From assembly GCA_033439265.1 (NCBI GenBank), contig JAVTVX010000001.1, forward strand, positions 17,564,608 to 17,628,607: DNA of 64,000 nucleotides. Reading direction: 5' to 3'. The stretch comes from Dillenia suffruticosa (lineage: Eukaryota; Streptophyta; Magnoliopsida; Dilleniales; Dilleniaceae). Positions 21,872-59,010 of the stretch are shown piece after piece. Under the pieces are notes generated by a model. That model did no database searches, was not told the DNA's origin, and was given only the letters and a program-made list of their open reading frames with translations. The translations under genes were made by a program, and so were the position numbers. Positions within the stretch are counted from its first letter, which is position 1. Each line of letters starts with the position of its first letter.

Positions 21872-22057
21872 TCAGCGTTTGGACCAGCCTGCAACTTGAC
21901 CAGCATGACTGATGATCGGGGAAGGACCTGCAGGTGGCACAGGAGCTCAAAAATGAGAAACAAGCACCTTCGATGTTGGACGATATTTCAACTGCTCAGT
22001 GATGATCAACTTAGTACCTGCGCTCATTAACATTATTATGATCATAGCTTGCCTCAT
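21872..22057 (-). pseudogene. CEP/PIP-like secreted peptide, copy 1 (broken)
   Basis: Homologous to the three intact copies over its whole length. It begins MRQAMIIIMLMS, one isoleucine shorter than the others. At codon 37 a TGA replaces the CGA arginine that begins the conserved peptide, so translation stops right before the mature region. The remaining codons still read APVPPAGPSPIISHAGQ, with the conserved G before H changed to S. The alanine-arginine segment at the expected signal cleavage is also altered. No TATA box is close upstream: the promoter homologue is displaced to about 23,755-23,850. This copy is almost certainly dead. Confidence 0.92.
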
Positions 22058-22609
22058 CTTCCCTTAAGGGCTCATATTTTGGGGTAAGAGAGAGAGATAG
22101 AGCGCATGTGTGTGTAATACCGAAATTCAGTGTTAGAAAATTATTAAAAATGTTGGATTTCAATATTTTCTTTTTCTACACACATCTTCTTAATCATCAT
22201 TTTCAATTTCAATATTGATGTGTTGAGATTTTTGTGTAGGAAAATTTTCAAGATAAAATTACTCATTTTGTGAAGATTCCCTAATTGTACTTTTACCTCT
22301 ATCACTCGATATAATTTTTTTGATAAAAAAAATCTAATAGAATTAGAAATTAAAGAAAAATAAGCAATTGAATATAAGGGAGAGTAAAAAATTAAAAATA
22401 TCAATTGAGTGTCGAGAAGTTGAGTGTGATTAGAATAAAATTGTGAGAGTATATTGATAATAAGAATTAATAAGTGAGAATTGATTTGTGAAGGGAAATG
22501 ATATTGAAATGATATTTATAGAGATTTCATATTTTTTTGGACTAAAATTATACTTCTAAAAGTTGTACAACAATTAGTTTTGAATGGTATAAAAGTAATT
22601 ATAAAAAAT

Positions 22610-22995
22610 TTGAAATTTGAATTTTATGACACGATGGTGGTACTATTCATTATTCTGATTATGACATAACAATGAAAAAATTGAATTTTAAATGATTTTT
22701 ATTTTTGTGCATATTGATTATTGTGATACAATAATAAAAATTTTAAATTTTAAATAATTTTAGTTTTTGTGCATATTTATTATTGTGATTGTGACATAAC
22801 AATGAAAATTTTAAATTTAGAATGACTCTAATTTTATGCATGTTGATTGTTGTAACATAATAATAAAAAATTGAATTTTAAGTGACTTCTGAATTTGTGT
22901 ATATTTATTATTATGATTGTGACACAACAATAAAATTTATGATTTCATAAAAAAAACAATAAAAATTTTGAATTTCGAATGATTTTAGTTTTTGT
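22610..22995. repeat. Degenerate tandem repeat, unit about 60-70 bp
   Basis: Repeated blocks share ATTATTGTGATTGTGACATAACAAT and TTGAATTTTAAATGATTTT elements in about five diverged units. The stretch lies in the segment that separates peptide copy 1 from its upstream region and is not seen in the other units. Confidence 0.6.
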
Positions 22996-23244
22996 TCAAA
23001 AATAAAAATCACTTGTTTTCAAAGGTTCGGTTCCGGTTTCAACCAAAAAAGATTTAATTCTGATTCTGATTTTTAAAATTTAGAAATAAGAACGAATCGT
23101 AAGTCTTTGGTTTCGATTCCGATTTTTGGACCGAAATTGAGAAGACAATTCTTGCTTGGTTTTTGGATAGTCGGTTTTGGTTTGGTTCATGACTCAAGCC
23201 GAACAAGGTAGGGACCTAAGATCGCGTGGGGGACTCTTATGAAT

Positions 23245-23747
23245 TGTTACGAATCCCAAATCATATTCCTAAGAAATCATAAAATAATATTTAAATTCAA
23301 TAGACTCTCTTATCCAACAGATCAATAAGCTCTCTTATCCAACAGATCGATCTCTTTTGGGTTGAGTTCTCCTATTGGGATTGAATTCATTATTTAGATT
23401 CGTGACAAATCAGAGATTCCAGTCTAGCATAGAAAAGGGCTATCTGGAAGAGGGTTATCTGAAAAAGGGCTACCTGGTGTCAGAGTGAAAGTCGTCCAAA
23501 ATGAAAAAAGGCATCTGATGTCGGAGTGAGAGTAGTCCAAAGAGGAAAAGGGCTACCCGCCAGAATGAGAGCCGTCTGTGGACGTCCGGCTTCTCAAGAG
23601 AAAGGTAATGTTAGGAATCCCATATCGAATTAATAAGAAATTATAAAATAGTACTTAAGTCCAATAGGCTCTCTCACTCGACAGATCGATCTTGTAGGTT
23701 TTATACTATTAGGTTTGAATTTATTAATCGGGTCCGTGACCGTGACA
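23245..23747. mobile_element. TRIM-like miniature LTR element (fossil)
   Basis: Two short direct repeats, 23,245-23,407 and 23,609-23,747, start TGTTA(C/G)GAATCCCA and end GTGACA. They enclose about 200 bp without coding capacity. A purine-rich stretch, CAAGAGAAAGGTAA, precedes the right repeat. Size and ends fit a terminal-repeat retrotransposon in miniature. The two LTRs are well diverged, so it is old. A clean target duplication was not found. Confidence 0.6.
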
Positions 23748-23754
23748 GGACTCT

Positions 23755-23855
23755 AACTTTAGCTGTAAACTATCGAGCCACGTGCTCGTCGTCCAGCACT
23801 TCTTTGTTCGCGAAAACCCGGTGCCGCGTAAAGTGCCAGAATTGGTATGAGAATT
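23755..23855 (-). promoter_or_regulatory. Displaced upstream region of peptide copy 1
   Basis: The CTAACTTTAGCTGTA, CAGCACTTCTTTG and GTGCCGCGTAAAG blocks match those lying 100-200 bp upstream of peptide copies 2-4 (28,697-28,795; 42,596-42,690; 59,147-59,225). Here they stand about 1.7 kb from the peptide start, separated by the repeat and TRIM-bearing segment. The TATA box was not recovered. Confidence 0.7.
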
Positions 23856-24273
23856 TTTTTTTTTCTTTACCCTTTAGTTTCAGTACGAGTCATCTAAACT
23901 AAAGTTGGAAAAGAGAAAGTCTACTTTACTTCTTTATAAAGATTATTCCAAATAAATCTCTCTAAAAAAAATAAAAAGTTTTCTCTTCTAATATAACTTT
24001 TGACTAAAAAAAGTCTACTTTACTTCTTTATAAAGATTATTCCAAAAAAATCTCTCTTAAAAAAATAAAAAGTTCTCTCTTCTACTATAAGTTTTGACTA
24101 CAAAGTCCTTTAAATTAAAATTCGACAACCATAAGTCCTGCCACTAACTGGGGTGCAAGGTTGGTTTGAGAATACAAATCGACGCTTTTGGAGAGAGAAT
24201 GGCAAAGAATGTGGAAGAATAAGAGTAAATATATATATAAAAAAAACCCTATTCACTGATACGTGAGAGAGAG

Positions 24274-25730
24274 TTCTGGAGACTTCCAAATTGAAAAAGT
24301 TTTAAAAATATTGATATTTTAAAATTTTTATATTATAATTATTTCATTTATTTTTATCAATTTTGTAAAAAATTTATTTTATTTTATTTTTTTATATTTT
24401 CATGGAATCACCCTATAAATAGAGGATTTGTATAATTTATTTAATACAACACACAATATAATATACAATATATGAGTCATTTTTTCTCAGTTTTCTCTTT
24501 TTATTCTCTCTGTTCTTTCTACTTTATTTTCCTTTTTTAATATGGTATTAGAGTCTGCTTTATTTCTCACATGGTATCAAAATACTAGGTGTTCGATCGG
24601 ATATTTTTTTCTACCATTCTTATCAATTAGACTTCTTTTTTTAGCCTAATTATGGAGAAATTAAATATTTCTCAACCTATTTCTATTGTTCCAAATCATT
24701 CTGCTTCATTCTGCTTGTTCTCGATAATATTTTACAATCTGCTGTTTTTCTGCTATTAAAGATTCTGTTTCATTTTTCAATCCCTCTGTTTTATTCTGTT
24801 GGTTCTCGATAATATCTTACGATCTACTATTTTTCTGCTATTGAAGATTGTTGTTTATTTTTCAATCCCTCAATTTTATTCTACTTTATCTTATAGTCTG
24901 CTACTATCGCTACTATTAAGAATTCTGTTGTTATCGTCTCTTATACTCAATTTGAGTATTTTGCTATTCTACTTGATTCTTCAATCTATCTGCTTTTTCT
25001 CTAAATCTGTTGTTGAGAATTCTGCTATTATATCATCTTCTATTCAGTGTACTTTATTCCATCAGTGTTATTATACTATTATATCCTCTTCTACTCAGTC
25101 TGCTTATTTCCTCTGCTTTATCTGTTTGTTTTCTTTGAGTCTACTATTGAGAATTCTACTATTACATCATCTTCTACTCAATTTGTTTTTTTTCTTCTGA
25201 TAATCACAACCATGCTACACTCTTTACCGTATCAATTATGCACTTATTTTGATACTGATTGGTCTGATGATTCTACTAATCGACGGTCTACTATTGACTA
25301 TTATATTTTTTTTAACGATTCTTTAATCTTCTGACATAAAGTTTCTCTGTAATCTTAACTCATCTTTCTAGGCATCATAATGACCTACTACACAAATTCA
25401 AGATGACTTCTCTATTCCCAACTTGAGTTTGAGGATAGTGTAAAGTATATTGACATTCCTAAATTAAAGAAAACTTGTTGAAAAAGTTTTGGAGATTTTC
25501 AAATTAAAAAATTTTTAGAAATATTGATATTTTTAAATTTCTATATTGTAATTATTTTATTTATTTTTATTAATTTTTTAAAGATTCTATTTTATTTTTT
25601 TTATATTTTCATGAAATCATCTTATAAATAAGAGTTTTGTATAATTTATTGAATACACAATACAATATAATATATAATATATGAGTCATTCTCTCTCAAT
25701 TTTTTTTATTTTATTTTCTTTTTTCTAACA
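24274..25730 (+). mobile_element. Small non-autonomous Copia-like LTR element (fossil)
   Basis: The right LTR, about 25,439-25,730, starts TGTAAAGTATATTG and ends CTAACA. A shorter left LTR copy covers about 24,274-24,540. A primer-binding-site-like TGGTATTAGAGTCTG follows the left LTR at about 24,543. A Copia-style polypurine region, CAACTTGAGTTTGAGGATAG, precedes the right LTR. The interior is about 900 bp of T-rich, internally repetitive sequence (TTCTGCTATTAAAGATTCTG type) with no pol genes. It is broken and fairly old. It separates peptide modules 1 and 2. Confidence 0.7.
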
Positions 25731-25734
25731 AAAA

Positions 25735-27213
25735 GGATCGAAACCAAGTTCTTGATCCATCATCAAAATTGATGGTTGACAAAATTATTGTTAGAACCCA
25801 ATTTCTTGTAGGCGATCACGGCACCTTTCTGTCCTTATTCTAGGTATTCAACTGCACAACTACGCCTTGTTCAAAGATTTTACCCATTTCTTGATAAGAT
25901 AGTTTCATATGTTATGTTGGAATGGAATGTCACCCTAACCTCTGTTTTATAACATACAAGTGATTAGAGGCGCGTTACACTATGCATATGTGCTGATTTC
26001 TTACCAATTTCTTGTTCTCCCAATACAATTCTTAATGGGGTTCCATGCTTCCTTATTCTTAGTATGAATTACTTTAGCAAAAGATAAACAAAAGTAAAGG
26101 CCGCACTATTACATGTTACATTCGTGTGAAAAGAATGATTATCCAGCTTTTGATCAAACCCAACAACAGCCAAAGAATAATTTTGATTAATTTTGAGACA
26201 CCGCACAAAGAATAGCAGACCAACTTAATTCGTTTGATCAAAACTGGTAAGAGAAAATATTATATATATATATATATATATTCATAAAGTACTTTAATTC
26301 TCTTTTTATTGTTCTGTAATTCTCTCTCCATATTGACACTTTAACCCACAAGTCATATATATAATCTTTTGACTGGATTCCAATGCACTTTAGTTACTCA
26401 AAACACTGTTTTTGGAGCTGTACTAGTCGGTGAAATTTAAGTGTTTGTTTATAATATTATAGCGGCATTTTAACTGAATGGAGAAAGCCCCACTTTAGCT
26501 GTTGGTTGAAAATCATATTTTAGTGTTGGTTCATGCCCGTGCAACAATGACCATGAGATGAATATCAGACAGATGAACTGACACTACAACAACTTTCCCC
26601 TTATTAACAATAAATGAGGATAAAGTTAAAAACATAGTATTTTACCTTAACTTTTAAGGAGATAGTTTCGTAAACACATAAAAGATGAATTATATATATA
26701 TATATATATATATAACCTCTAAAATGAGTCAAACTATGATTTAGCCCTTAAGTTTTTATTTTTATTTATTTTGATTCTTCCATTATTATTTTTCTTCTTC
26801 CTTAACTTGTGATGATAAGATAGAGATGTGCTCATGGACAAAGGCACGGGAAAAATTAATTACGCACTAATCTTTTTTTTTTTTTGTTATACAAGAATTG
26901 AAATATGAAATTATTAGATTGGATGAGGGGTTGTGATCACTAACCTGTCTCATTAGGGGACGTTACGCAATAACTATGAACACAACTAGGAGTGAACGAG
27001 GAAAAGAAAACGAAGCATGGGTCAGTGCTACACTGCATTGCCAAAAAGAAAGTTGTGTTTGTGACTCATCAATCTAAATGTGTTCTGTCGGTATCATACT
27101 GTCCCAATCAAGATACCCATGCTTAATGCTTACTAATACTTTTCCACTAAGAATCAACTGGGCAGTGAACCAAATCTACTTTTTCACAAGCTAAGCAAAA
27201 TAATAGTAATAAT
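25735..27213. other. 3' flank of peptide module 2
   Basis: Homologous to 19,210-21,770 and 57,040-58,780, without the Mutator-like insertion of unit 1. It contains (AT)n tracts at about 26,261-26,280 and 26,693-26,714. No coding sequence was recognised. Confidence 0.6.
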
Positions 27214-27227
27214 AATATTGGCCAGTG

Positions 27228-27463
27228 GCAAATCAGTGTGCAGTCAAGCTTGCTGAGCTAGGTCAAGGTGCTGAGCCGGGTGTGCATGAAAGTGACTCTC
27301 CTCCAACAGAAGTGGTAAGCTATCTGCAGCATGATGTGGCTGGCTGTTTTAGGATCAGGAAGAAATTGGGTCTCCCCCTACTGGGTGATCCCTACTTCGC
27401 TCTTGTTTGTATTTGCTGTCTTTCCATTTTCAGTTTCACCAAAAAAAAAAAAAAAAAAAAAAA
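27228..27463 (+). mobile_element. L1-type LINE 3' end with poly(A) tail
   Basis: The insert is bounded by a 14-bp target duplication, AATATTGGCC(A/G)GTG, at 27,214-27,227 and 27,464-27,477, and ends in an A run of about 25. The + strand reads ANQCAVKLAELGQG, then DSPPTEVVSYLQHDVAG. This is the C-terminal end of the plant LINE RNase H region (REANxCADxLAxLG then PPPxVxxLLxxDxxG). About 150 bases of 3' untranslated sequence follow. It is heavily 5'-truncated, as is usual for L1 insertions. Confidence 0.85.
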
Positions 27464-28293: not shown

Positions 28294-28299
28294 TTTATT
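28294..28299 (-). terminator. Candidate poly(A) signal of peptide gene 2
   Basis: AATAAA on the - strand, about 97 bases after the stop codon, in a conserved block. Confidence 0.5.
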
Positions 28300-28395
28300 C
28301 AACGTTAAATCAAAGATGTGTATGGGAACAAAAGATAATTATAAATTAGAGGATGCATGGCCAATGCCTTGTAAAAGGAAAAGGATGTTCAATGA

Positions 28396-28584: not shown

Positions 28585-28594
28585 CTTCCTTGAT

Positions 28595-28597
<3 letters not shown>

Positions 28598-28630: not shown

Positions 28631-28633
<3 letters not shown>

Positions 28634-28667
28634 GGTGAGGTGCGTAAGGGAAGAGGGAGGGGCCAAG

Positions 28668-28675
28668 TATTTATA
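28668..28675 (-). promoter_or_regulatory. TATA box of peptide gene 2
   Basis: TATAAATA on the - strand, conserved in position with copy 3 and, as TATAAAAA, with copy 4. Confidence 0.75.
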
Positions 28676-32730: not shown

Positions 32731-33530
32731 GTGTATATGCACGGTGAAGGGAGGAAGTAAACGAAGTGTAACTACATTCCTAAAATTTTAAGGAAAAAAA
32801 CTAATCATAGTTTTTTTTTTTTTTTTTTAATAATAACGTCAGATACTGTTTTCTCTTATAATGTTTAATGCATATTATGTTATGACATAAATTTCTAATT
32901 CATAAATCATGAGAACCAGATAAATTATATATCACATTTTCAAGTATTAAACTTTCATAGAAACATAGGTGCATCTCAACTACTGCAACTTCAGAATTAG
33001 AGCAATTAAGCGTTTGTAGCTTTAAATAAATCTAGAGCAGACACATTTCAGCAATTGCTGAAACTACATAACATTATCAAAAATCATACCAAATCAAAAC
33101 TTCCCATTCTTTGCAATCGTCTTTAATAGGTATGCCGTCAAAATTCCCAGTTATTTGCAATCATCTTTGCAATCCTCAGGTATAAATACTCACAAATCCT
33201 CCGAGAGTTGATGGCTGTTGAGTCTAGTTAGGCTCCTCATTTTATCCATCCATGCTTATATGACAGTGAGCCTCTTTCATGCTTTCTCAAAATTGACACA
33301 GCCCTGAGAACGAGTGGAGGGAGTTAACTCCACATTTTAACCATCTTTTTTTTTCTCTTACTAAGAGCACTCAAAGGAATTCAAAATTTCATTTACCTGA
33401 AATAGTCAATAATATACAGGCCCCCCGATATAGCGGTGGCATACAACTCTCAACAAAACCACAGTGGGAACTGAAAAATAGCAGAGTATGCTTATGCCCC
33501 AAGTCTGCCATTATAACAAGTCAATTATAG

Positions 33531-34303
33531 CCAGTATGGGACTCAGAGAAGTCACTTGGGCATGGTAACATGACCTCTTGCTCTAGCAATCACAAGACCT
33601 GGTTCATTGTTGGATGATCATCAGGGTTTGCATCCGTGCATCTTGCAGCGATTTCCAGGATAGCTTCAACAGTTTCAGCATCCGCATCTGTTCACCTTTT
33701 ATCCACTACATCTTCCAACCGATTTTCTCTCAGCAAGGTGTTTCATCTGAAATCAAATGAAGCATACTTAGCAACTTAACTTTCCACCGACAGTGGTACA
33801 AAAAGGAAATTCTGAAAACTTACACTTTCACAAATAATAGATCAGTCGGCCTTTTCCCGGTAACTAGCTCCATTAGGAGAACTCCAAAAGTATACACGTC
33901 AGATTTCTCTGTGGTTCTTCCACTTTGCAAACACTCTGAGATCCAAGGCCAAAGTAAATATAGGAAGCACTTTAACAAGAAATAACAACACTGTACATCA
34001 CTCGTCCTATCACCTTTAGAAGTATTGTTTCAAATAATACAAGAAACATACCCGGTGCCAAATAGCTGAAAGTGCCAGCAACTACTGTTGTCACATGAGC
34101 ATCCTCATCCACCAAGAGTTTGGCAAATCCAAAGTCTGCAACGTGAGGCTCCAGGTTTTCATCCAGAAGTATATTGCCGGACTTGATGTCACGGTGCACC
34201 ACTCTTGGACAATATTCATGGTGCAAATATGCCATACCTCGTGCTGAACCAAGTGCAATTTTCAAGCGAGCAATGCAGTTCAAGGTGCTTTCTGGTCCAT
34301 GTT
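33531..34303 (-). pseudogene. LRR receptor-like kinase pseudogene, copy 2 (C-lobe only)
   Basis: The catalytic exon, 34,303-34,051, reads HGPESTLNCIARLKIALGSA, then HRDIKSGNILLDENLEPHVA and [20 protein letters not shown]. The following exon, near 33,930-33,828, stays in frame longer than in copy 1 ([20 protein letters not shown] then VTGKRPTD), but loses the RGLNVVGW segment. In the last exon a small indel (GTGTTTCATC) disturbs the start of NTLLRENRLED. The N-lobe exon present in copy 1 is missing: at about 35,420 the sequence jumps from the equivalent of 14,435 to that of 15,087. It cannot encode a kinase. Confidence 0.85.
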
Positions 34304-35460
34304 CTGCTAGAAGAGACGAAACATACTAGATTAAAAAGCAACGTAGTTTCAGATCTCTAGCCTTTTGCCATTTTGTTAAGGGTAGAGTTGGCTAGGATTT
34401 GCTTGACTTGACCAAAGAACAAGCCAAATAACCAATTCTTGAGGTGGCATAATCATAATGCGCTATCTCAACAACTATGAACTCCATAACAAAACCATTC
34501 TTTTGTTTTGTACAATCCATAATTGTGAAGATTGCACATTCTGATTACCCGCCTCAGCAACTAATTACCATCCAACTCCATGAATGGAAAGCAGCCAAAT
34601 CCAAGTACAACAATCCAAATAATACATAAATCCATTTTCATTACACCAAAATAATAGTGAATAGAATTATAAAGAAGATTTGCAAGTTTGGTTCCCTCAT
34701 TAGGAGGGTCCACTTGGCACTTCAAGCCCAAGGTCTTATCTTGTGCATATGTGTGTCTGGCATTCTGGGTTTAGGACTACATGGATGGAAAAATGTCTAA
34801 GGCTAGAGAGAAGAGGGGAACTGGAAATTTTGTGCCTCTCCATAACCATTGAAGGACAAGAACCAAGGATTGATTGAGAGTTGGTGCTTGAGAGGAACAA
34901 GGGTTATTTTCTTCTGCTCTTCTCACACCCTAGAGTTCTCAACAAGCTCCGCGAATTCCCTCTATATAGAGAGTTGAAGCATAATGGGCAGCTAGCCTAA
35001 CCCAATATAATAATTGAGGTCAAATAACTAGCGTACTAAAATTTTAGGATCGCCTACCAGCAATCAATGGTGGCACCTAATGAGGAATCCAGTAAGCAGC
35101 AAGGTTACATAAATGCAATTGTGGTTACAGCATCTCTCCTCTGAACTTTCTGACAGCACATGTAAGGCATGCAGATATTGTACCAAAATACATTGCAAGA
35201 GCCACTAGGAAACCAAAAGAATCTCTAGACAAACTCTGTGTCAGCAACATGCCAGTATGATCACCATTCATCCCAGAGTTCTATCAATATTGATACCAGA
35301 TATCCGTGTTCTGAATGACTTCATGTGCAGAGATATGTTAAAAGACTTCTTCATCGACTCTTTATACAACACCTCTCGAGCTATCTTTAGAGTACACGTT
35401 GGATTTTGGACTTCTTCATGTACCAAATGCAACAGCCAATATGGACATCACCAATAAGCA
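34304..35460 (-). pseudogene. Kinase pseudogene 2: intron and membrane-segment remnant
   Basis: Homologous to 13,730-15,132 of copy 1, with the N-lobe exon deleted. About 370 bp (roughly 34,505-34,870) is present here but not in copy 1. A trace of the membrane segment survives near 35,450 (LLIGDVHI in place of LLIGVMSI). Confidence 0.7.
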
Positions 35461-35974: not shown

Positions 35975-37680
35975 AAACCGGCTGACTGGACTACCACGTA
36001 GATGATGACTAGACGTAACCACATGACTGGACTCCACTCGGTATGCTGACGTGGTTTTCAACTGATGACTGGACTGCCAGGTGGTGATGACCGGATGAAA
36101 AAGCTGACTGGACTCCACGTTGTATGCTGACTTGGGTTTAAGATGATGCGGACTGCCAGGTGGTGATGACAGGATGAAAAAGCTGACTGGACTCCATGTC
36201 ATATGCTGACTTGGGTTTAAGATGTGTGGACTGCCAGGTGGATGATGGACCCCACATGTTATGCTGATTGGACGGAACTAGCTGACTGGACTCCACGTGT
36301 AAAGCTGACTTGGATTAAGCAGCTGACTGGATAGCCAGGTGGATGGTGGCCCCATACATGTTATGCTGACTGGATGGAACCAGCTTATTGGACTCCATGT
36401 GTTTGCTGACATGGATCAAGTTGCTGATTTGCCTGCCAGGTGGATGATGACCGGTGGAGCCACATGTTTTGCTAACCGGATGGAATCTGCTGATTGGACT
36501 CCATCAGAAATGTTCACTTGGATTAAGAATCTGACAGGACAGCCAGGTTGATGGTGGACCCAAACGTTATGCTGATAGGACGGAACCAGCTTATTAGACT
36601 CCACTTGTCTGCTGACATGGTTCGGATGACATGGCTGTTTGTCTGATGACTGGACTGCCAGGTGGATGGTGGACGCCAACGTGTTCTACTCACTGGATGG
36701 AATCTGCTGAGTGGACTCCACGTGGAAATGACTTGGATTGCCAGGTGCATGGTGGATGCCACGTGGTATGCTGATTGGACGGTACCATCTGGTTGGACTC
36801 CACGTGTTTGCTGACTTGGTTCAATGTGCTGCTGTGTTATCCATGTGGATGATGACTCAACCAAAAAGCTGACTCGACTCCACGTGGATGATTGGACTGC
36901 CAAGTGGATGGTGGGTGCCCACTTGTCGCGCTGACCGGATGAAACCAGCTAACTGGACGCCACGTGAAAGGCTGATTAGGATTAAGCAACTGATTGGACA
37001 GCCGTAGGAGGATGGTTGACGCCATTTGTTTTGCTGACCGGACGGAACCAGTTGATTGGACTCCACATTTTGCTGACTTGGCTCAAGTTGCTGACGTGTT
37101 ATCCAGGTGGATGATGACTTAATCAAAAGCTGACTGGACTCCACCTCGTTTGATGACTTGGCTGTAGCTGATGACTGGACTGCCAAGTGGATGTTGATTG
37201 CCCACATGTCCAGCTGACAGGAAGAAGCCAGCTGACTGGACGCCACGTGGAAGGCTCGCTTGGATTAGGCAGCTGACTGGACAGCGGGGTGGATGATTGA
37301 CTCCACCTGTTTTGCTGACTGACAGAAATAGCTGATTGGACCCCACGTGTTTGTTCACTGTGTTCAAGGTGTTGACTTGTCTGCCGGGTGGATGATGACT
37401 AGATGGAAAAGGATGACGGATTACACGGCGTATTCTTCCTTGCCTTCAAGCTGATGACTGGACTGCCAGGTGGATGATGGACACCACATGTTCTGCCGAC
37501 TGGACGGGACCAGATGATTGGACGCCACGTGTTATGCTTACCGAATGACACCAGGCCGACTGTCCCCACGTTGCTGCTGACCGGGGGAAACCTGCTAACA
37601 TGATAGGACGTGGCAACCGAATGGATGCTAAAGGCGGCTAGCTGGAGGAAACGTGGCATTTGACTGGATGACAACCTTCC
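35975..37680. repeat. Minisatellite of CTGACTGGAC/CCACGTG type, array 2
   Basis: The longest of the three arrays. It shows a higher-order pattern of about 150-170 bp: GGACTGCCAGGTGGATGGTG, ATGTTATGCTGACTGGACGG, then CCAGCTGATTGGACTCCACG. I count about nine CACGTG palindromes in it by eye. It ends at the XLG-like fragment. Confidence 0.85.
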
Positions 37681-38464: not shown

Positions 38465-39253
38465 TAAAAATATATATGTCGAATATAAATTCATTATATG
38501 TCTACTTCATATTCATATTATAGGCCGTTCAAAATCAATTTGATTATATTTATATTATAAATATCGAAATTAATTTAAATACTGATTATCTAATAATTTA
38601 TTATATAAATTTGATTATAAAACAATTATTTTTTTAATTACATATATTTTTTAATAAATTTATATATTAAAAAGTCAGGTTTGACTAGGGTTAAACTAAT
38701 CTCAACTTTGTCAAAACATAATGGCATTTTTTATGAACGATTGCTTTCTCTTTACCCTTTTTCCCCGGGGGGGAGTTGGAGGATGTGGTCCTAAAATATT
38801 GTTTTAGCAAGCTGCTCGAATGTAATCCGGTGGAAATCACAGTGCTAGAGAATGTTTCTCTCTCCCCTCGCTCCTTTGGGTGGGGGGGAAGGGATTCTTA
38901 TCATCCCCCCCGGGGGGAATTCATTATCAAATAGCAAGAGAAAGATAAAGAGGCAACAGAGACACTCAGAATTAACTACGAGAACAAACTTAAGGGGGGG
39001 GGGGGGGGGAGGGAGAGAGAGAGAGAGAGAGAGAGATTGGCAAGTTAATGATATGACAATCCCTAGCTATTGATATTTGAGTCATTTTTAACAATTAGGA
39101 GAGACCAAGTAGCTAAGATATATGGCGATATCTCATTTTGCGAGCTCAATCAAGTTCTCACCCTCAATGAGAGTGACACTGCAAGGCTCCCATGGAAGAC
39201 TGAGATTTAAAAGCAAAGGCACCTAAAGAACAAAAAAGAACCCCTTTATTTTT

Positions 39254-40335
39254 TCATTCCTTGGTGCCCCGGATTTCTTCTCTGAGATGATCATAAGCAG
39301 AAAGCATCACTGATCTTCTGTTTGCTATATCAACAAGAGTCTGCGGTGCTGCACAAAACAAGTTCAGAAATTTTACTCATTCTCCAAACATGCCAAATAA
39401 AAGTTGCGAGAGACACAGAGAGAGAGCATTTTCCAAAGGGATTGACTTAGTTTAGTTACTATCTGTTTCAAAAGAAAGTCGTGCATCTCGACGCTTAGGA
39501 GAAACCAGGGCTCCAAAAACCATCAGAGTTTTTCACTTCTCCGTTTGAACCTAGGAAGGAATGAATTTCAAATTGATACAAATCAGATGCTTGATAGAGT
39601 CTCACCTGGTTAATGCTAAACAGAATGGACTTTGATAACGAAGAAACAACTAAAGTAACTTCCGCGGACACACACAAATCTATGTTTCTTTCCATACCCA
39701 AAATGCATACAAAAGCAGAAGCATACATGAGATGAGTGCAAGCACAAAGAAACAGGTTTTGGGGTTACTTGTTCTTCACTCTTTTGTGGACGGCCATTAC
39801 TTTTGGGGCTTTTCAGGGTAATTCTTTTCACAATCAAATAGGCAGCATGAGAAATTTGTTGGAGATACTGCATATCCTTAAAATAAACAAATGAATGGAA
39901 AAGAAAACACTACCCATTCATAGGCACAACACCTAAACTAAATCTGGAAGGATAATGCAAAAGCGTTTGTCATCATCTGCAGGCAGTTGGAAGAAACAAA
40001 ACTCTGAAACGGCATGTCCTTCGGGATGAAGATTCCAATGGGAGTCTAATATCCCAGTTAAATATTTATTAAAAAAAAAAAAGAGGGTGGCTAGCAACTT
40101 GATGCCATGTTGACAGGCTCAACTTTACATAATAATCATAGAATAATAGACAAGTGCAAATGGAGAAAACAGAGCTACCTATAACCAGATGTGATCCTTT
40201 CTCGTCCCTGAACATCATCAGAATTCTTCTGCACTTCATCCTCATCAAATTTCACTTCCTTGGATAGAAAATCTTCATCATCATAGGATTCCCACTTGTG
40301 AAGGGTAAAATGTGGTTGCTTCATGTTGGAGCTGG
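39254..40335 (-). pseudogene. VMA22/CCDC115-like pseudogene, exons 3-6, copy 2
   Basis: Exon 3, near 40,335-40,205, reads HFTLHKWESYDDEDFLSKEV. The acceptor before exon 4 is destroyed (ATTACCCTG instead of ATTACAGGTG). In exon 5 the VQKERSK segment is disturbed by a small indel. The exon 6 acceptor is kept, but ALETL reads APQTL. The stop follows GTKE at 39,254. Exons 1-2 are absent. Confidence 0.87.
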
Positions 40336-42130
40336 CTAGTGAGATCAAACAAAATGAAATTAGTTTTCTGAATCCTTTTGCAGCTAGGATACTCTTTTAA
40401 AAAAAAAAAAAAAAAATCCTTTTTGAAAACTTTCTTTCTTTTAATTTGATGTGGGAAGAACAAGATATGAGCAAAAGGAGCATCCTCACATCACAACCTC
40501 CACATCTAGCAAGAGATCATCAAAATTGGGAGGACACTGCTCAGAAAATCAACTGGGGGGATCACCATGGAAACAATAAAGATTATGAAATTTGTCCCCA
40601 AAAAAAAAAAAAATCATTCATCACAAAAGTGAACTGGTCCACCCACAATTGACCCCTTGGGATTTTAAGGTTAATGTGGAAACGGCATTATATTTAAACT
40701 GACTCATAAAATGTCTGAGTAAAAGTGTTTAACTCAATCTTACCTGCATTTGATAGAGTAAGAGTTATTGGAAACCCTTCTAAGCTTTTGTTGTGCTAAT
40801 TTTGTATTTCCATCTTGTGTTATATATTGTGTACAATTTTTTAATTTTATTTTCAAAAACTATCATTTGAGAATGCCAAAATTATCTTAAATTAAACAAC
40901 CTAAAATCAAACAACTCTTGGGTTTTTCTTTTCTTTTCTTTTCAATGAATATGTTTCATTAAAGAATACTCTGTACTCAGTTCTTTAACGTACATATTTC
41001 AACATCTTTTCCCATTCCCAAGAAAAAAATGAAAATCTCATAACATGAAATATATTGTATTTAATTACCCTATACTATTTCAAGCCACGTGTAAATATCT
41101 TATTTGTTAAGATTTCTTTCTGTTCCAATAGTTTGGAAAAAAAAGGAAAAAAGGTGCGTGGCATTTAACAGACAGGATAAGTGAATATTGCTCAATAGTC
41201 AAAGAATAATTTTGATTAATTTAGAGACACCAAATAAAGAATAAGAGACCAACTTAGTTCATTTGATCAAAACTGGTTAGAGAAAAGATTATATATATTC
41301 ATAAAGTGCTTTTCTGAAGTTTGACTTAATTCCCTTTTTTATTGTTCTGTAATTCTCTCTCTATATTGGCACTTTAACCTACAAGTCATTAATATATTCC
41401 ATTGATCGGATTCCCATGCACTCTAATTACTCAAACCATTTATCTGAATGGAGAGGGGCCCCCTTTTGTACCACTTGCACCGCATCGATTCTTATTCATT
41501 ACTATAAAATTAAATAAAATAAAATATCAAATGTATGAGAAATAAAATATTCAATATAATATTCACACAATTCATTTTAATTTGGCTATTTAACTAAAAA
41601 ATAACTAAAATTTTTGGTAATTCAATTCATACAATTGCAAAAAATATTTTTCTCTTGACTTAAAATACAATTATAATTAAATCACTTCTCCTCACAAATC
41701 TCTCTCAGACACGATTCTCTTGCCATTCCAACAACCTCTTCTCCACCCTACACACAAAACACCGATATCCTTTTATATTATTTTCTTCACAATTTCCTAT
41801 ATTTTCTTTTCATATTTTACATGCCGCCAGTTTTTCTTTTGTTTTTATTCATTATTACCACTTTCGGGATTTAGTTGGGCACTGTTAGTTGATATAGTGA
41901 AATATAATATTAGGTTTTTAATCAAAATTATGACTTTGATTCGTGATTTGGGCATAAAACAAATTATGTTGAGAGGGTATCTCTCTTAAATGGGTCACTA
42001 TAAATTTCAAACTGAATTAATCAAAATATAATTTTAGATACCAATCGGTATAATATCAAAAAAATAACATTGAACATTAGAATTTGCATAGCTTAGCCAT
42101 TCAATGATCAAACATCCTCATGTCTCTTCA

Positions 42131-42564: not shown

Positions 42565-42572
42565 TATTTATA
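42565..42572 (-). promoter_or_regulatory. TATA box of peptide gene 3
   Basis: TATAAATA on the - strand, in a block shared with copy 2. Confidence 0.75.
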
Positions 42573-44769: not shown

Positions 44770-46440
44770 ACCAAACCGGCTGACTGGACTACCACGCGGA
44801 TGATGACTAGACGGAACCACATGACTGGACTCCACGTCCTATGCTGACCTGGGTTTAAGCTGATGTGGACTGCCAGGTGGATGATGGACCCCACATGTTA
44901 TGCTGATTGGACGGAACTAGTTGACTGGATTCTATATGTAAAGCTGACTGGATAGCCAGGTGGATGGTGGCCCCATACATGTTAATGCTGACTGGACGCA
45001 ACCAGCTCATTGGACTCCATTTGTTTGCTGACATGGATCAAGTTGCTGACTTGTCTACCGGATAGAAAGGCTGACTCGACTCCACGTCGTCTGATGACTT
45101 GGCTGTAGGCAGATGACTTGACTGCCTGCTAGATGGTGGAGCCACATGTTTTGCTAACTGGACGGAATCTGCTGATTGAACTCCACAAGAAATGTTGACT
45201 TGGATTAAGAATCTGACTGGACAGCTAGGTTGATGGTGGACCCAACGTTATGCCGATAGGACGGAACCAGCTCATTGGACTCCACTTGTCTGCTGACATG
45301 GTTCAAGGTGCTGACTTGTCTACCAGTCGGATGATGACTGGACGGAAAAGCTGAATGGACTTCACGTCATCTGATGACATGCTGTTGTCTGATGACTGGA
45401 CTGCTAGGTGGATGGTGGACGCCGATTTGTTCTGCTCACTGGATGGAATCTGCTGAGTGGACTCCACGTGGAAATGACTTGTATAGCCAGGTGCATGGTG
45501 GACGCCACGTGGTATGCTGATTGGGCGGTACAATCTGGTTGGACTCCACGTGTTTGCTGACTTGGTTCAATGTGATTACGTGTTATCAATATGGATGATG
45601 CCTCAACCAAAAAGCTGACTCGAGTCCACGTCATTTGATGACTTGGCTGTAGCTGATGACGGGACTGCCTAGTGGATGGTGGGTGCCCACGTCCTGCTGA
45701 CTGGATGCAACCAGCTAACTGGACGCAACGTGAAAGGCTGACTAGGATTAAGCAACTGATTGGACAGCCAGGTGGATGGTCGACGCCATTTGTTTTGCTG
45801 ACAAGGACAGAACCAGTGGTTGAACTCCACATGTTTACTGCTTGGTTCAAGTTGCTGACGTGTTATCCAGGTGGATGATGATTTGATGAAAAAGCTGACT
45901 GGACTCCACGTAGTTTGATGACTTGGCTGTAGCTGATGACTGGACTGCCAAGTGGATGTTGGATGCCCACATGTCCTGCTGACCGGAAGAAACCATCTGA
46001 CATGACGCCACGTGGAAGGCTCACTTGGATTAAGCAGCTGACTGGACAGCCGGGTGGATGGTTGACTCCACCTGTTTTGCTGACTGACAGAAATAGCTGA
46101 ATGGACCCCACGTGCTTGCCGACTGTGTTCAAGGAGTTGACTTGTCTACCAGGTGGATAATGACTAGATAGAAAAGGATGACTGGATTACACGGCGCATT
46201 CTTCGTTGGCTTCAGGCTGATGACTGGACTGCCAGGTGGATGATGGACACCCCAAGTTCTGCTGACTGGACGGAACCAGATGATTGGACGCCACGTGTTA
46301 TGCTTACCGAACTACACCAGGCTGACAGTTCCCACGTTGCTGCTGACCGGGGGAAACATGCAAACATGATAGGACGTGGCAACCGAATGGGTGCTACAGG
46401 CAGCTAGCTGGAGGAAACGTGGCATTTGACTGGATGACAA
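44770..46440. repeat. Minisatellite of CTGACTGGAC/CCACGTG type, array 3
   Basis: Closely related to array 2, with several unit gains and losses. I count about six CACGTG palindromes by eye. It ends at the XLG-like fragment. Confidence 0.85.
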
Positions 46441-52900: not shown

Positions 52901-55003
52901 TATGTAGGTGACATACTGTTGGCTGGGAACAACAGAGAGTATCCAATGACCATTGTAACATGGTTATGAGGTTTTAGTTCATTCTCAGATTTTGGATCCA
53001 TAGAGATCGCTTGAGAATGGTGTTGACTCTTTAACAAAAGTTTTACATCAGGTAGATTCTTAAGCATTTCGAGAATAACGAACACAACCTAAAAGATACT
53101 CTAATCGCTAAAGATAAAAAGACCTGAATCTTGACACATGCCCTAGAATTTATAAAGAAATAAGGGAGATGAGCAGAATCCCTTATTCCAGTGCAAAATA
53201 CATTTCTAGTGTGTGCGATGAGGTATACACGTGTGATATACAATTTGATGTATGCGATGAGGCATACATGACCAGATGTTTATTTAGCAGTCGATCTGGT
53301 GAGTAGATATTAATAGAATCCTAGAAGGGATCACTGTAGAGCAGTGAAAAAAAAGGATTCTGAAATATCTCATTTGAACTGCGGAACTCTCCATGTGTTA
53401 CGGATGAGGTGATTTGCGTTTTGTGGTTGAGATTCAGATACTGACTGGGAGTAGTGATCTGAATAAACGCAAAAGGTTTTATCTTCTTAGAGCAGTAAGA
53501 AGAGAACCTGTATATCTCTATCTATTTTCGATAGAGAGTGAGTTTGTAATATGCTCAATTGCAGTTCATGAGAATGGTTGGCTTTAGAAATTTTCTGATA
53601 GACTTAGAGGTTGTGACAGAAAGTGGGAGGTCAGTGATGATTACTGTGATAATCAGACCGACACTGTTAACAAATGAGACCCTAAGTGTAATAGCAAAGC
53701 CAAACACATTGATACCGAAGACCACTTTGTGAGAGAAATTACCGAGAAGGGTATTGTGACATCTAAGTACACCTTGACATACAGCATGAGAGCTGATCTC
53801 TTCAGAAAACCCATTGTGAGAGATTCCTTTGTGAGATAAGGAATTATTGGGTTTAGTGTACTTTAACATTTCTCCTTATATACTGTTTTAGATGCTTATT
53901 TTAATATATGACAAGTTTGCATTATTGAGTCACATATTTATTTTATGCATCATCTGTTGTCATATATTGTGATTTTGTGATAAAAGATGTGTCAGGCAGG
54001 CATGGTCGACTCTCTCACACGAGTGACCACCTTCGACTCTGAGTGAGCGGAGATGAGACGGATTCTAGTCGTAAGAGGCTTTGAGAGTAGCCCTACTAGA
54101 ACATAAGTCGCCCTGATATGTGTTCAGGATGAGGTCATATGCGATATGACCGACATGGAAATACCCACATCCATGTTGCCTGTAAGCAGCCAGGTATGAG
54201 ATCTCAGATATCACCTGCGATTTGTGATATTGTCTCTGAGATGCTCTCTCTGAGATCTCTGGGTAAAGTCTTATGTGTAGACTGAGTCCCGTACCTGTAC
54301 AGTGTTAGAGAAATCTGACATATGCCCTTTGAGATATGGGGGAATAACATTGTGGCACGTGTTTCATACCACGTGTGATAAGACGACCATGGGACAGTGG
54401 GAGCTATTATTTGAGACGATAGTTTGATCTTGATCCCCGTTCCCACTGTGTGAGACCTGAGATCCATTGGGTGGGATCTCTTATACCCTTATTACTTTCG
54501 GCTGTCTCTAGAAGTATTGGTTCAGTGTTGCTACTTTAGTCTGTTTACCTATGGCCCAGAAGATAAATTGAGGTCTAAGGGGCAGGTCTAGGAAAGCAGC
54601 TGAATTGAGATCGATAGATTCGAGTTTGGGAAAAGGAAGGCCAATAGACATTACATCATTGTCATGTATTCATAGGTCGACCTATTATGTTAATCCATGT
54701 TGGGATTCAAACATAATAATGAATACATAGTCGAGCAAATTGATTGGGGATCACTTTCGATGAGGAAAGTGGCTCGATGGATGTAAATGCATTGAGTCTG
54801 GGGTATAGCGAGTTATTTTTATACTAACAGTGACTTCTCGATCATCCTAACAGGTGTATCGAGAAGTCTTTGCTTGCAGGTGTACTCGCCGGTCGCACGA
54901 CGCCCAATCCAGTATGAAAGTCCAGTAGGGTGATGTGATAGATCGCATGAGTTACGATCTTGTGATTGACGGAAATGAAATGCCCTCATGTGCAAGTGGG
55001 AGA

Positions 55004-55474
55004 TGTAGGAATATGCCCATTATGGGCATTTGGGTAATTAAGGAATGGGGTAACTCCCATCCTTAATTACCACTTAATCAACCACCAAATGGGTAACTCC
55101 CCAAAAAAAACCTAAATGAGCCAAAAAGATACCATGTGAAAGAGTGTCTTCTTCCTCCCTTGCCCCACGTGAACAGTAACCATGGTGGAGATGGCTAGGG
55201 TTTTGCACATATTCTCTAGAGAGAGAAAATAGAGAGAGGGATGGAGATTTTCGCGTAGGAAAATCTCCCATCGTCAGACGATTCACCGGACACGAGGCTT
55301 GAGGCGTCGTGGATTTGAGGTGGTGGTTCGATTGCGTGATCACCATCCGACCGAGCGATCCGTTCGAGGGACATCGCGACACGGTGGATTTTGGAGACTG
55401 CCCTATTGAGGTATTTATCCCAAAAATTCCGATCTATTTAATTCTCGCTTCCGCATGCACGATTAAATCCAACA
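55004..55474 (+). repeat. Right LTR of the Copia element
   Basis: A 471-bp terminal repeat, nearly identical to the left one apart from a length difference in a purine-rich part. Confidence 0.93.
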
Positions 55475-56782
55475 TGAATGAAAAAGAAAACACTACCCAT
55501 TCATAGGCACAACACCTAAACTAAATCTGGAAGGATAATGCAAAAGCGTTTGTCATCATCTGCAGGCAGTTGGAAAAAACAAAACTCTGAAACAGCATGT
55601 CCTTCGGGATGAAGATTCCAATGGGAGTCTAATATCCCAGTTAAATATATATAAAAAAAAAGAGGTGGCAAGCAACTTGATGTCTTGTTGACAGGCTCAA
55701 GTTTACATAATGATCATAGGATAATAGACAAGTGCAATTGGAGAAAACAGAGCCACCTATAACCAGATGTGATCCTTTCTCGTCCCTGAACATCATCAGA
55801 ATTCTTCTGCACTTCATCCTCATCAAATTTCACTTCCTTGGATAGAAAATCTTCATCATCACAGGATTCCCACTTGTGAAGGGTAAAATGTGGCTGCTTC
55901 ATGTTGGAGCTGGCTAGCGAGATCAAACAAAATGAAATTAGTTTTCTGAATCCTTTTGCAGTTAGGATACTCTTTTAAAAAAAAAAAAAAGAAAAGAAAA
56001 AATCCTTTTTGAAAACTTTCTTTCTTTTAATTTGATGTGGGAAGAACGAGATATGAGCAAAAGGAGCATCCTCACATCACAACCTACACATCTAGCAAGA
56101 GATCATCAAAATTGGGAGGACACTGCTCAGAAAATCAACTGGGGGATCAACATGGAAACAATAAAGATTATGAAATTTGTCCCCAAAAAAAAAAAAAAAT
56201 CATACATCACAAAAATGAACTGGTCCACCCACGCAATTGACCCATGGGTTTTGGTTAATGTGGTAACCATGGGTTTTTAAGGTTAATATAGAAACGGTAT
56301 TATATTTGAACCCACTTGTAAAATATTTAAATAAAAGTGTTTAACTCAATCATACCTGCATTTGATAGGGTAAGAGTTACCCAAAACCCTTATAAGCTTT
56401 TGTTGTACTAATTTTGTATCTTCATCTCGGATTTGACATATCCATATAATTAAATTTAAATGTGATATATATTGAGTACGTTTTTCTAATTTTATTTTCA
56501 AAAACTATCATTTGAGAATGCCAAAACTAAGGTCAAATAACTCTTGGGTTTTTCTTTTCTTTTCAATGAATATGTTTCATTAAAGAATACCCTTTACCAA
56601 GTTCTTTAATATACATATTCCAACACCCTTTTCCCTTCCCAAGAAAAAACGACAATCTCGTGGCATGAAATATGTTGTTTTTAATTACTCTACGCTATTT
56701 CAAGTCAGATGTAAATATCTTACTTGTTAGGATTTCTTTCTGTTTCAATAGTTTGGTAAAAAAAAAAAAAAAAAAAAAAAAA

Positions 56783-56860
56783 AGTTCTCAGGAACACTTT
56801 AGTCATACAAACACTCTTCCTTTAATCTGATGATATCAAGTTCAAATTCTTTTATAACAA
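56783..56860. mobile_element. Possible truncated SINE in module 4 flank
   Basis: Relative to 41,135-41,160, this unit has an extra piece bracketed by A runs. It contains a B-box-like CAAGTTCAAATTC. There is no clear target duplication. Confidence 0.35.
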
Positions 56861-58421
56861 AAAAAAAATATATGGCATTTAACACACAAGATAATTGAAT
56901 ATTGCCATATTTAAGTATGATACAAGCATATAAAATTTGAAGGAAAATATGATTGCTATAACTAGAATTTGTATGACCTGCATATGTTAAGATTAACAAA
57001 AAAATGGAACCATGTAAGAATAATTTTTGAATTTCCATCGAGTTCTCGCATGTAGGCGATCATGGCACCTTTCTCTTCCTATTCTAAGTACACAACCGAA
57101 CAACTGCACCTTGTTCAAAGATTTTACCCTTTCCTCGATAAGATAGTTTCATATGTTATGTTGGAATGGAATGCCAGCCTAACCCATATTTTATAACATA
57201 CAAGTGATTAGAGGCGCATTATACCATGCATATATGCCCATTTCTTACCCGTTTCTTGTTCTCCCAATACTACTGTTAATGTGGTTGCATGCTTCCTCAT
57301 TCTTTGTGTGAATTACTTTAGCAAAAGATAAACAAAAGCAAAGGCACACTCGTGTGAAGAGTACGATTATCCAACTTTTGATCAAACCCAACGATGGTCA
57401 AAAGAATAATTTCCATTAATTTAGAGACACCAAATAAAGAATAAGAGACCAACTTAGTTCATTTGATCAAAACTGGTTAGAGAAAAGATTATATATATTC
57501 ATAAAGTGCTTTTCTGAAGTTTGACTTAATTCCCTTTTTATTGTTCTGTAATTCTCTCTCTATATTGGCACTTTAACCTACAAGTCATTAATATATTCCA
57601 TTGATCGGATTCCTATGCACTCTAATTACTCAACACTATTTTTGAAGCTGAGCTAGTTGGGGTAATTTAAGTGCTGTTTACAATTTTATAGCGGCATTTA
57701 TCTGAATGGACAGGCCCCCCTTTAGTACCACTTGCACTGCACCTGAGAATATGCTTTGGCAGGTGAAATTTGCCCAATATAAACCCATTAAATTTCACTA
57801 AATCTCCTTAAATCAGATTTTTAAAAGATAAAATTCTCCTTACCAACTTAGTTGTCAGTGGGGTGTGAATTTGTTAATGCTTGATTAAATATGAAAGCCA
57901 TTCATCTGTCAATGGTTTAATAACTTCTGTTTTGTCGCTCAAGTTCGCCTCAGTGCGTTCCTCAAGTTTTACCTGCCAGCCATGGCATATTATTTTATGG
58001 AGGGTGTTTGCATATAAGGCAGACAATTTTGATTTATTGATGATTTTTATTTCTTTGCAATGAAATTTTTATTTGCTAGAATATATGATACTTTTATAAG
58101 ATCGGTTGTATTACCCGAATGCTCCCATATTCTCCTATCTTATTTATGTTTATCATAAACTACTTAACCCTATTGTCTTACTGTTCACTCAATTTTTATT
58201 CCTTACTTCAAAATTTATCAAATGTATCATAAATAAAATATTCAATACAATATTTACGTAAGCCATCTTAGTTTACCTACTTGAGTAAAAAATTACTAAA
58301 ATTATTGGTAACTCAACTTATACAATTGCAAAAAATATTTTCTCATGGCTCAAAATACAATTAATAATCAAATCACTTCTCCTCACACGTCTCTCTCTTT
58401 GGCACTATTCTCTTACTATTC

Positions 58422-58537
58422 ATTTTTTTTGATAACTTGGCTATCTGGTATCTGGCGTTTCGTTCTGACTAATCCAGACCGAGGAGTCTGTCAACCTTAA
58501 TTGAGGAGTTCTTTCCCAATAATATTTTTTCCGTACC
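58422..58537 (-). mobile_element. SINE insertion, antisense, in peptide module 4 flank
   Basis: The 116-bp insert lies between perfect 12-bp direct repeats, CTCTTACTATTC (58,410-58,421 and 58,538-58,549). Read on the - strand, it ends in ATCAAAAAAAAT after GGTCTGGATTAGTCAGAACG, a 3' segment like that of tRNA-derived plant SINEs. The site is empty in module 1 (about 21,520). Confidence 0.75.
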
Positions 58538-58718
58538 CTCTTACTATTCCCTTCTACACTCTAAGCACAAAACACCACTATCCTTTTATTCATTATTAGC
58601 ACTTTCTAATTCACATATTTAGTTGGACTAAATAATGTTGAAGATTAGAATTTGCATGGCTTAGTCATTCAATGATCAAAACATCATTCAATGATCAAAA
58701 CATCCTCATGTCTCTTCA

Positions 58719-58724
58719 TTTATT
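58719..58724 (-). terminator. Candidate poly(A) signal of peptide gene 4
   Basis: AATAAA on the - strand, about 98 bases after the stop codon, in the block shared by all copies. Confidence 0.5.
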
Positions 58725-58821
58725 CAACATTAAATCAAAGATGTGTCTGGGAACAAAAGATTATTATAAACTAGAGGATGCATAGCCAATGCCTTGTAAA
58801 AGGAAAAAGGATGTTCAATGA

Positions 58822-59010
58822 TCAGCGTTTGGACCGGCCTCCACCTTGACCGGCATGACCGATGACTGGGGAAGGACCTGCAGGTGGCACAGGAGCTCGA
58901 AAATGAGAAACAAGCACCTCCGATGTCGGACGATGATTCAACTGCCTAGCCATGATCAAGTTAGTAATTGCGCTCATTAACATGATTATTATGATCATGG
59001 CTTGCCTCAT
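58822..59010 (-). CDS. CEP/PIP-like secreted signalling peptide precursor, copy 4
   Basis: This 62-residue precursor starts MRQAMIIIIMLMSAITNLIM, followed by ARQLNHRPTSEVLVSHF, then RAPVPPAGPSPVIGHAGQGG and RSKR. There is no in-frame upstream ATG, which fixes the start. It carries the cleanest combined motif: GPSP (as in PIP peptides) and SP-two residues-GH (as in CEP peptides). At 62 residues it is shorter than usual CEP or PIP precursors, with almost no variable propeptide. The terminal GGGRSKR tail would have to be trimmed if the mature peptide ends at GH, as in CEPs. A TATA box lies 105-112 bases upstream, with a CT-rich leader between. No neighbour is co-transcribed. Confidence 0.8.
   Translation of the reverse strand: MRQAMIIIIMLMSAITNLIMARQLNHRPTSEVLVSHFRAPVPPAGPSPVIGHAGQGGGRSKR

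Follow-up and report, generated by a model that had tools for sequence, protein, structure and literature searches.

The window analysed here, a stretch of 64,000 nucleotides of the Dillenia suffruticosa genome (contig JAVTVX010000001.1, here C1, positions 17564608-17628607), carries a tandem array of small genes, P1 to P4, which probably encode secreted-peptide precursors and descend from a CTNIP-type gene without having kept its conserved cysteines; the peptide is possibly still made. CTNIP peptides are also called SCREW. The preliminary description of this DNA had read four homologous loci on the minus strand, with three intact open reading frames (ORFs) of 62 codons and one dead copy, spaced 6.5, 13.9 and 16.6 kb apart, and all of this is confirmed (Table 1). 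Its view of them as a duplicated family of small secreted-peptide-type precursors is also supported, and the genes show homology to a known class of signalling peptides in plants.

The whole genome (596,357,000 bases in 37 contigs) was searched with P3 as query, and at least seven loci matched: P1-P4, L004, L006 and L007. The four members described earlier exist, but the family is larger, as L004 and L006 also belong to it. The loci without the conserved cysteines (Cys-less loci) are counted as six, namely P1-P4, L004 and L006, five of them intact and one (P4) dead.

Descent from two-cysteine genes

The nearest relative of the window genes is the two-cysteine gene L007, which reads PVPPSGPSPCTYIPGNGGGTCN (z 13-15 in shuffle tests). 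P2 aligned to it with a score of 121 against a shuffle mean of 29.8 (z 14.9, 0 of 2000 shuffles as good), z was 11.7 without the signal part, and P1 and L006 gave z 13.9 and 12.8. The alignment of the Cys-less genes with L007 contains no gap between PVPP and the position of the second cysteine, with C-T-Y-I-P-G-N-G-G-G-T-C of L007 opposite I-I-G-H-A-G-Q-G-G-G-R-S; therefore, the GH picked out in the preliminary description stands at the Y-I of L007. The two conserved cysteines are replaced in all six Cys-less loci, and a pair spaced by 9-11 residues is found in none of them. The only cysteines left are single and lie elsewhere (residue 13 in L004 and residue 26 in L006), and the region of the first cysteine reads PIIGH, PVIGH, PIISH, PIIDD or PITYG, not CT[YN]I. 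Moreover, the five intact Cys-less copies grouped together in a midpoint-rooted protein tree (support 99/96) and L007 joined them (98/98). In a DNA tree of the six copies, P1-P4 stood apart from L004 and L006, a split that was moderately supported (91/87).

L007 belongs to a cluster of similar genes. Two stretches were examined for CTNIP-type genes, namely C1:17540001-17717999, which includes the window, and C11:16196001-16315999; the pieces that make them up leave out single bases at their joins. With four queries, tblastn found six two-cysteine genes there: L007, A, B and B' on C1, and A' and B'' on C11. Those on C1 lie within ~24 kb to the right of the window (L013:2001-2300, +; L013:6542-6868, -; L014:8686-9012, -; L015:5965-6153, -). 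The residues between the cysteines number 10, 9, 9, 10, 11 and 9 in A, B, B', L007, A' and B'', respectively, so that a spacing of 9-11 is present in all six, and L007 has CTYIP at its first cysteine, as A does. L007 also matched the CTNI-bearing B'' (z 9.0). On the C11 stretch, tblastn (E <=1e-3) detected no counterpart of L007. A screen by regular expression also listed a 27-residue frame in L029 (C1:17711496-17711579), bearing CTNI plus another cysteine; it was discarded as a chance match, as it has no signal-like start and no tblastn match. No Pfam family was found for L007, A, L006 or L004, and A' gave only a sub-threshold DUF932 (E 0.11).

According to the accessible part of PMC9191895, the Arabidopsis peptides CTNIP1-5 are perceived by HSL3 with BAK1, 'confident' CTNIPs were filtered on 9-11 residues between the cysteines, and some CTNIPs had been unannotated. 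The same part reports that the final 23 residues of CTNIP4 suffice, whereas CTNIP4 with mutated cysteines neither signals nor binds HSL3. The window genes are like the CTNIPs of Arabidopsis in the short precursor, the signal-peptide-like start, the conserved C-terminal stretch and the tandem copies, and their homologous neighbours bear CTYIP, CTNIP, CTNI or CSYI with two cysteines 9-11 apart. On the other hand, the Cys-less loci have I or V, and S, at the conserved cysteines, their tail ends in SKR, and CT[YN]IP is gone from all six, TY being kept by L006 alone.

Concerning the time of the loss, C1:17.557-17.718 Mb is for the most part colinear with C11:16.231-16.276 Mb, with 44 matches of at least 300 bases and a weighted identity of 79.8% (several matches lie in array repeats, an overlap of the window with a neighbouring piece makes two of them overlap, and a handful are off the line or inverted), which fits a chromosome-scale duplication. 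By parsimony, the ancestor of the clade would have been a CTNIP-type gene that lost both conserved cysteines before this duplication, because L006, at the matching place of C11, also lacks both of them. The Cys-less genes would then have multiplied on one homeolog, C1, where five loci are present versus one found on C11.

The signal peptide would be removed after ...LIMA and the proline-rich C-terminal stretch, approximately FRAPVPPAGPSPIIGHAGQGGGRSKR, could be released in linear form, with no disulfide. Such peptides would no longer be ordinary HSL3 agonists, because the cysteines are needed for the binding of CTNIP4 to HSL3; they could act as linear ligands of a related leucine-rich repeat receptor kinase, or else be relatives of the neighbouring CTNIP-type peptides with a weak or antagonistic action. 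It is conceivable, although unlikely, that this CTNIP branch without conserved cysteines has passed from a disulfide-dependent hormone to a linear IDA/CEP-like ligand of another receptor of the HAE/HSL/CEPR/RLK7 group, after being kept on both homeologs since the whole-genome duplication and multiplying on one of them. We consider it improbable that the copies are antagonists, that is, secreted linear relatives that compete for HSL3 with the neighbouring CTNIP-type peptides without recruiting the co-receptor. The CTNIP-type origin, the shared cluster, the core kept beside the cysteines and the dose that tandem copies would raise could be read in that sense, but the accessible part of PMC9191895 reports that receptor binding itself, and not just co-receptor recruitment, depends on the cysteines, which argues against a simple competitor. 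The probabilities given to the preferred descent from a CTNIP-type gene with a peptide possibly still made, and to relics, antagonism and IDA/CEP/PIP membership, overlap.

Several points weigh against the preferred reading, to which those on divergence in a later section are added. Compared directly with B'', the Cys-less genes gave z 5.8 (P1), 4.3 (P2) and 2.6 (L006, equalled by 40 of 2000 shuffles), so the tie to the CTNIP-type genes goes mainly via L007. L007, A and B were themselves named CTNIP-type by motif, spacing and mutual homology, not by published CTNIP sequences. The regular-expression screen allowed 9-13 residues between the cysteines and was blind to other spacings, with all six genes being tblastn matches as well. 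The program that built the protein tree warned that long branches meet, and a loss before the duplication presumes neither gene conversion nor parallel loss.

No earlier report of CTNIPs without cysteines was found among the papers listed, judged by title and abstract opening, with most subscription journals and the SCREW paper outside the scope. These Cys-less CTNIP-derived peptides could be new signals or blockers, or relics on their way out. A natural clade of this kind, beside relatives with both cysteines intact, makes it possible to ask whether the receptor was changed, a blocker arose or the genes died. If the receptor was indeed changed, a single gene cluster could show the successive steps of that change.

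Resemblance to CEP, PIP, IDA and CLE peptides

The C-terminal end of P2 resembles several peptide families. P1-P3 were scored by best local alignment against short motif lists from papers found by string search, not against precursors of this genome, and the lists were unequal (17 IDA, 2 PIP, 7 group I CEP, 3 group II CEP and ~40 CLE). SlIDA11 and PVPPSGPSPCHN were in the IDA list only through a search for similar strings, and the IDA test was rerun without both. P2 gave z 8.1 with the IDA motifs, 5.1 without these two entries and 4.9 without all entries beginning with PV, followed by group II CEP (3.2), CLE (2.6, or 2.5 without PtCLE34), group I CEP (2.4) and PIP (0.7); P1 was similar. P3 gave z 5.3 (5.1) with IDA, 3.1 with group II CEP, 1.5 with group I CEP, 0.8 with CLE and -1.0 with PIP. 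By themselves, these scores would have pointed to IDA, and IDA membership was favoured for a time on them and dropped once L007 appeared.

It is highly improbable that these genes are true IDA/IDL, CEP or PIP members encoding linear proline-rich hormones for HAESA, CEPR or RLK7-type receptors. The scores of P2 argue for it, as does tomato SlIDA11, printed as PVPPSGPSPIGN in table 1 of PMC12903503 (seen in part). However, the closest full-length relative is the two-cysteine L007 in the CTNIP-type cluster, the (R/K)(R/K)HN end of IDA and GxGH are lacking, GH varies among the copies, and the scores come from the short and unequal lists described above. SlIDA11 too could conceivably be a relative of CTNIP without cysteines and not an IDA.

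Regarding IDA/IDL, the accessible portions of PMC4526919, PMC6971993 and PMC12903503 give SGPS for both IDA and PIP (PMC4526919) and IDA of the PIPPSAPSKRHN type (PMC6971993). The window genes share with these peptides the PxPPxGPS core (PVPP in P1-P4 and L004, PAPP in L006), an intronless short precursor, a short tail after the core and, in three of the four window copies, an Arg after the signal peptide. Nevertheless, where S(G/A/V)PS followed by (R/K)(R/K)HN is expected, they have AGPS or ARPS, with A for the first S of SGPS, followed by PII or PVI and no RHN, and their homology to L007 runs over the full length. Furthermore, the accessible part of PMC9191895 reports no binding of IDA to HSL3.

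The preliminary description had labelled the genes as CEP/PIP-like, and this label does not hold. The GxGH or SPG(I/V)GH of CEP is absent from the six Cys-less loci, three of which have IIGH or VIGH and three other residues; GH is kept only in P1, P2 and P3, with SH in P4, DD in L004 and YG in L006. Group II CEPs carry VPSPG(V/I)GH in the accessible part of PMC12494267, and P1-P3 approach it with PSPxIGH (PSPIIGH or PSPVIGH), but they lack the G of GxGH, do not keep GH among copies, have a ten-residue tail after GH and are of other descent. As for PIP/PIPL (RLASGPSPRGRGH, PMC10704477, seen in part), P1 and P2 share GPSP with them, but the P2 score is no better than shuffles, and instead of SGPS and the GxGH that PMC4526919, as far as accessible, places at the extreme C terminus of PIP and CEP, AGPS or ARPS is found with the ten-residue tail and no GxGH. 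CEP/PIP membership was rejected on the motif definitions and on the descent through L007 to CTNIP-type genes. A short proline-rich end can mimic CEP, PIP or IDA despite other descent, which matters for the annotation of small-peptide genes.

Divergence and selection

Pairwise comparison of P1-P3 over truly homologous stretches showed that the coding sequence (CDS) differs by 4.2-6.9% and the upstream DNA by 5.6-11.8%, a factor of 1.3-1.7 over the CDS within each pair; over 35-60 bases the leader differs by 8.6-13.3%, and the 3' part, at 4.9-6.1%, resembles the CDS. The strong conservation of coding against flanks claimed earlier is thereby reduced to a CDS that changes mildly more slowly at most, and replaced or inserted upstream DNA accounts for much of the contrast visible in the sequence. 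Counts from a four-way alignment were rejected in favour of the pairwise ones, as non-homologous upstream DNA had been paired in most pairs (flank differences of 25-57%); for P2-P3 that alignment gave ~5% upstream versus 6.9% in the CDS. L004 differs from P1-P3 by 9-11% in the CDS and 12-14% in the flanks, and L006 from the array by 15-18% and 16-22%.

Insertions and deletions (indels) do differ between CDS and flanks. There are none in the CDS of P1-P3 versus 2.5-3.2 expected from the flanks outside simple repeats (Poisson probability of none, P0, 0.04-0.08 per pair), none versus ~7 expected for L004 with P1-P3, and none versus 2.7-7.6 for L006 with the array (P0 0.001-0.067 over the seven L004/L006 pairs); the pairs share branches and are not independent, so these P values are not to be multiplied.

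The Nei-Gojobori (NG86) ratio of nonsynonymous to synonymous change (dN/dS, omega) was 0.49-0.96 over the whole CDS of P1-P3, with nonsynonymous counts not below those of neutral simulations (P 0.25-0.69), and 0.64-1.42 for L006 versus the array, none significant. L004 gave 0.24 versus P2 (P 0.012), 0.36 versus P1 (P 0.062) and 0.44 versus P3 (P 0.101), its pair with P2 being the sole one with P <0.05 among ten Cys-less pairs. Among the two-cysteine neighbours, taken as yardsticks, the B homeologs had omega 0.30-0.40 (P 0.001-0.005) and the duplicates B and B', which are under purifying selection, 0.19 (P 0.002); the A homeologs, unlike B, had 0.90 (P 0.61).

Maximum likelihood (ML) estimates, from an in-house script with one fixed topology, are among the points against a peptide gene still in use, as is a level of CDS substitution that matches that of the flanks or falls only a little short of it. 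Omega for the five intact sequences was 0.72, not significantly below 1 (p 0.29), with 1.02 for codons 1-21, 0.40 for codons 22-36 (p 0.11) and 1.04 for codons 37-62; the C1 copies alone gave 0.50 (p 0.07), and 0.62 for codons 37-62 (p 0.40). The check proposed earlier, a dN/dS well below 1 in the C-terminal residues, gave no significant departure from 1 by ML: for codons 37-53, NG86 gave 0.20-0.43, with only 1-2 nonsynonymous changes per pair, and ML gave 0.30 for P1-P3 (p 0.19), 0.45 with L004 added (p 0.23) and 0.92 with L006 as well (p 0.87).

These values leave an appreciable chance, tentative as it is, that the copies are decaying relics, whose function went with the cysteines and whose frames are open since drift has been short. 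It would agree with an omega not different from 1 overall or at codons 37-62, with the nearly equal divergence of CDS and flanks, with one dead copy in six, with a core glycine altered in P3 and L006, with the loss of GH in L004, L006 and P4, and with the lack of a clear TATA box in L004 and L006, which likewise counts against the preferred reading. Against decay stand the absence of indels from five ORFs over both homeologs, with many in the flanks (P0 0.001-0.08 per pair, not independent), and the omega of L004 with P2; stop-free ORFs alone are weak evidence, as 16-59% of the neutral simulations gained a stop. Regarding this data, our reading is that the Cys-less genes keep their frames and, loosely, their residues, with the former hormone region free to change between homeologs, a pattern compatible with changed function, diversification or slow decay. 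The family had also been called expanding, and five C1 loci against one found on C11 agree with this, but a dead copy is among those five, and purifying selection acting on the peptide region falls short of significance.

Gene signals and repeat units of the array

The TATA box, leader and AATAAA described for the three intact copies are present, with 91-115 bases from the TATA start to the ATG and a leader rich in CT; all four window copies have AATAAA after the stop. At the place of TATAAATA in P2 and P3, L004 and L006 have TTTAAATG and TTTGAATA, so that either a gain of the TATA box within the array or two separate losses are conceivable. The N-terminus of P1-P3 is hydrophobic, which fits the signal-peptide-like start noted before (best Kyte-Doolittle 11-mer 2.75-3.0); a hydropathy of at least 2.5 was reached by 10 of the 137 window ATG ORFs of 45-90 aa, a set that contains P1 and P2, P3 being outside it because its first ATG opens a longer frame. 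P4 reads ITEQ at the expected cleavage site versus MARQ in the other copies, and no TATA box was seen upstream of it; pieces homologous to the upstream DNA of the other copies appear beyond the ~1.67 kb before its leader that show no homology, at 23752-23885, 23927-24011 and 24012-24228. The leaders of P1-P3 contain CT microsatellites whose length varies between copies, and a run of 14 G lies upstream of P3 (28852-28865).

No family was found by a Pfam search of P1-P3, a search of the Protein Data Bank (PDB) with P2 gave nothing meaningful (best E 1.5), and Rfam gave 0 matches in the whole window at the gathering threshold.

Table 1. Positions of the genes, their signals and the repeat-unit features (window coordinates unless C1 or C11 is given)
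Feature	Position	Strand	Details
P1	58822..59010	-	intact ORF, 62 codons + stop, MRQAM...FRAPVPPAGPSPVIGHAGQGGGRSKR
P1 TATA box	59115..59122	-	TATAAAAA; consensus only
P1 AATAAA	58719..58724	-	consensus only
P2	42269..42457	-	intact ORF, 62 codons + stop, ...FRAPVPPAGPSPIIGHAGQGGGRSKR
P2 TATA box	42565..42572	-	TATAAATA; read from sequence
P2 AATAAA	42131..42136	-	read from sequence
P3	28396..28584	-	intact ORF, 62 codons + stop; core glycine altered (PPARPSPIIGH); tail GLGGGLSKR
P3 TATA box	28668..28675	-	TATAAATA; read from sequence
P3 AATAAA	28294..28299	-	read from sequence
P4	21872..22057	-	dead copy: 3-base deletion, in-frame TGA at codon 37
P4 AATAAA	21770..21775	-	read from sequence
Stretch before P4	22081..23751	.	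~1.67 kb without detected homology to other copies, between P4 leader and upstream-homologous pieces
Kinase fragment	12573..13910	-	degraded kinase domain (3' part of receptor-like kinase), in one repeat unit
Second kinase fragment	33190..34505	-	Pkinase E 2.2e-15 for 33975-34325
Further repeat unit, pieces	60519..62832	.	near right edge; window self-comparison
L004	C1:17557750-17557935		intact, ...FQAPVPPAGPSPIIDDAGQVGGRSKR; 6.7 kb left of window; E 2.0e-24
L006	C11:16230945-16231130		intact, ...LRAPAPPAAASPITYGAAQFGGQSKR; matching place of duplicated chromosome; E 1.1e-17
L007	C1:17683965-17684153		two-cysteine, ...SVPVPPSGPSPCTYIPGNGGGTCN; 55 kb right of window; E 7.0e-8; 50% identity
A	C1 17660001	+	CTYIP; tblastn
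B	C1 17664838	-	CSYI; tblastn
B'	C1 17676982	-	CSYI; tblastn
A'	C11 16253268 (L020:7268-7561)	+	literal CTNIP; tblastn
B''	C11 16260232 (L021:3936-4262)	-	CTNI; tblastn

Comparison of the window with itself gave 101 matches of at least 150 bases (E <=1e-10), and the best 90 of the 101 are all in the same orientation. The repeat unit contains a degraded receptor-kinase fragment and minisatellite-like arrays, with the peptide gene to their right. The copies ride on direct repeats, and therefore their spacing reflects segmental duplication and not independent genes. That there is no gene at all, only a functionless repeat-borne ORF copied with the segmental duplication, is extremely improbable: the copies do sit on kb-scale units with kinase fragments and minisatellites, but the homology extends over the full length to L007 and on to the CTNIP-type genes, the start is signal-like, TATA box and AATAAA are kept in three copies, and a copy stands at the matching place of C11.

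The solved kinases nearest to the window kinase fragment are BAK1 and BRI1, and we take both degraded copies to resemble FEI-type kinases. Among seven further window ORFs, Pfam matched the kinase piece only. Near the right edge, 60519-60780 corresponds to 10768-11018, 61063-62832 to 38798-40633 and 61370-62832 to 17662-19141, and no further Cys-less copy was found to the right of these pieces. Minisatellite-like arrays lie in the repeat units at 15704-16059, 36024-37531 and 44857-46297, have units of ~40-280 bases such as GACTGGACTGCCAGGTGGATG and yield spurious long ORFs.

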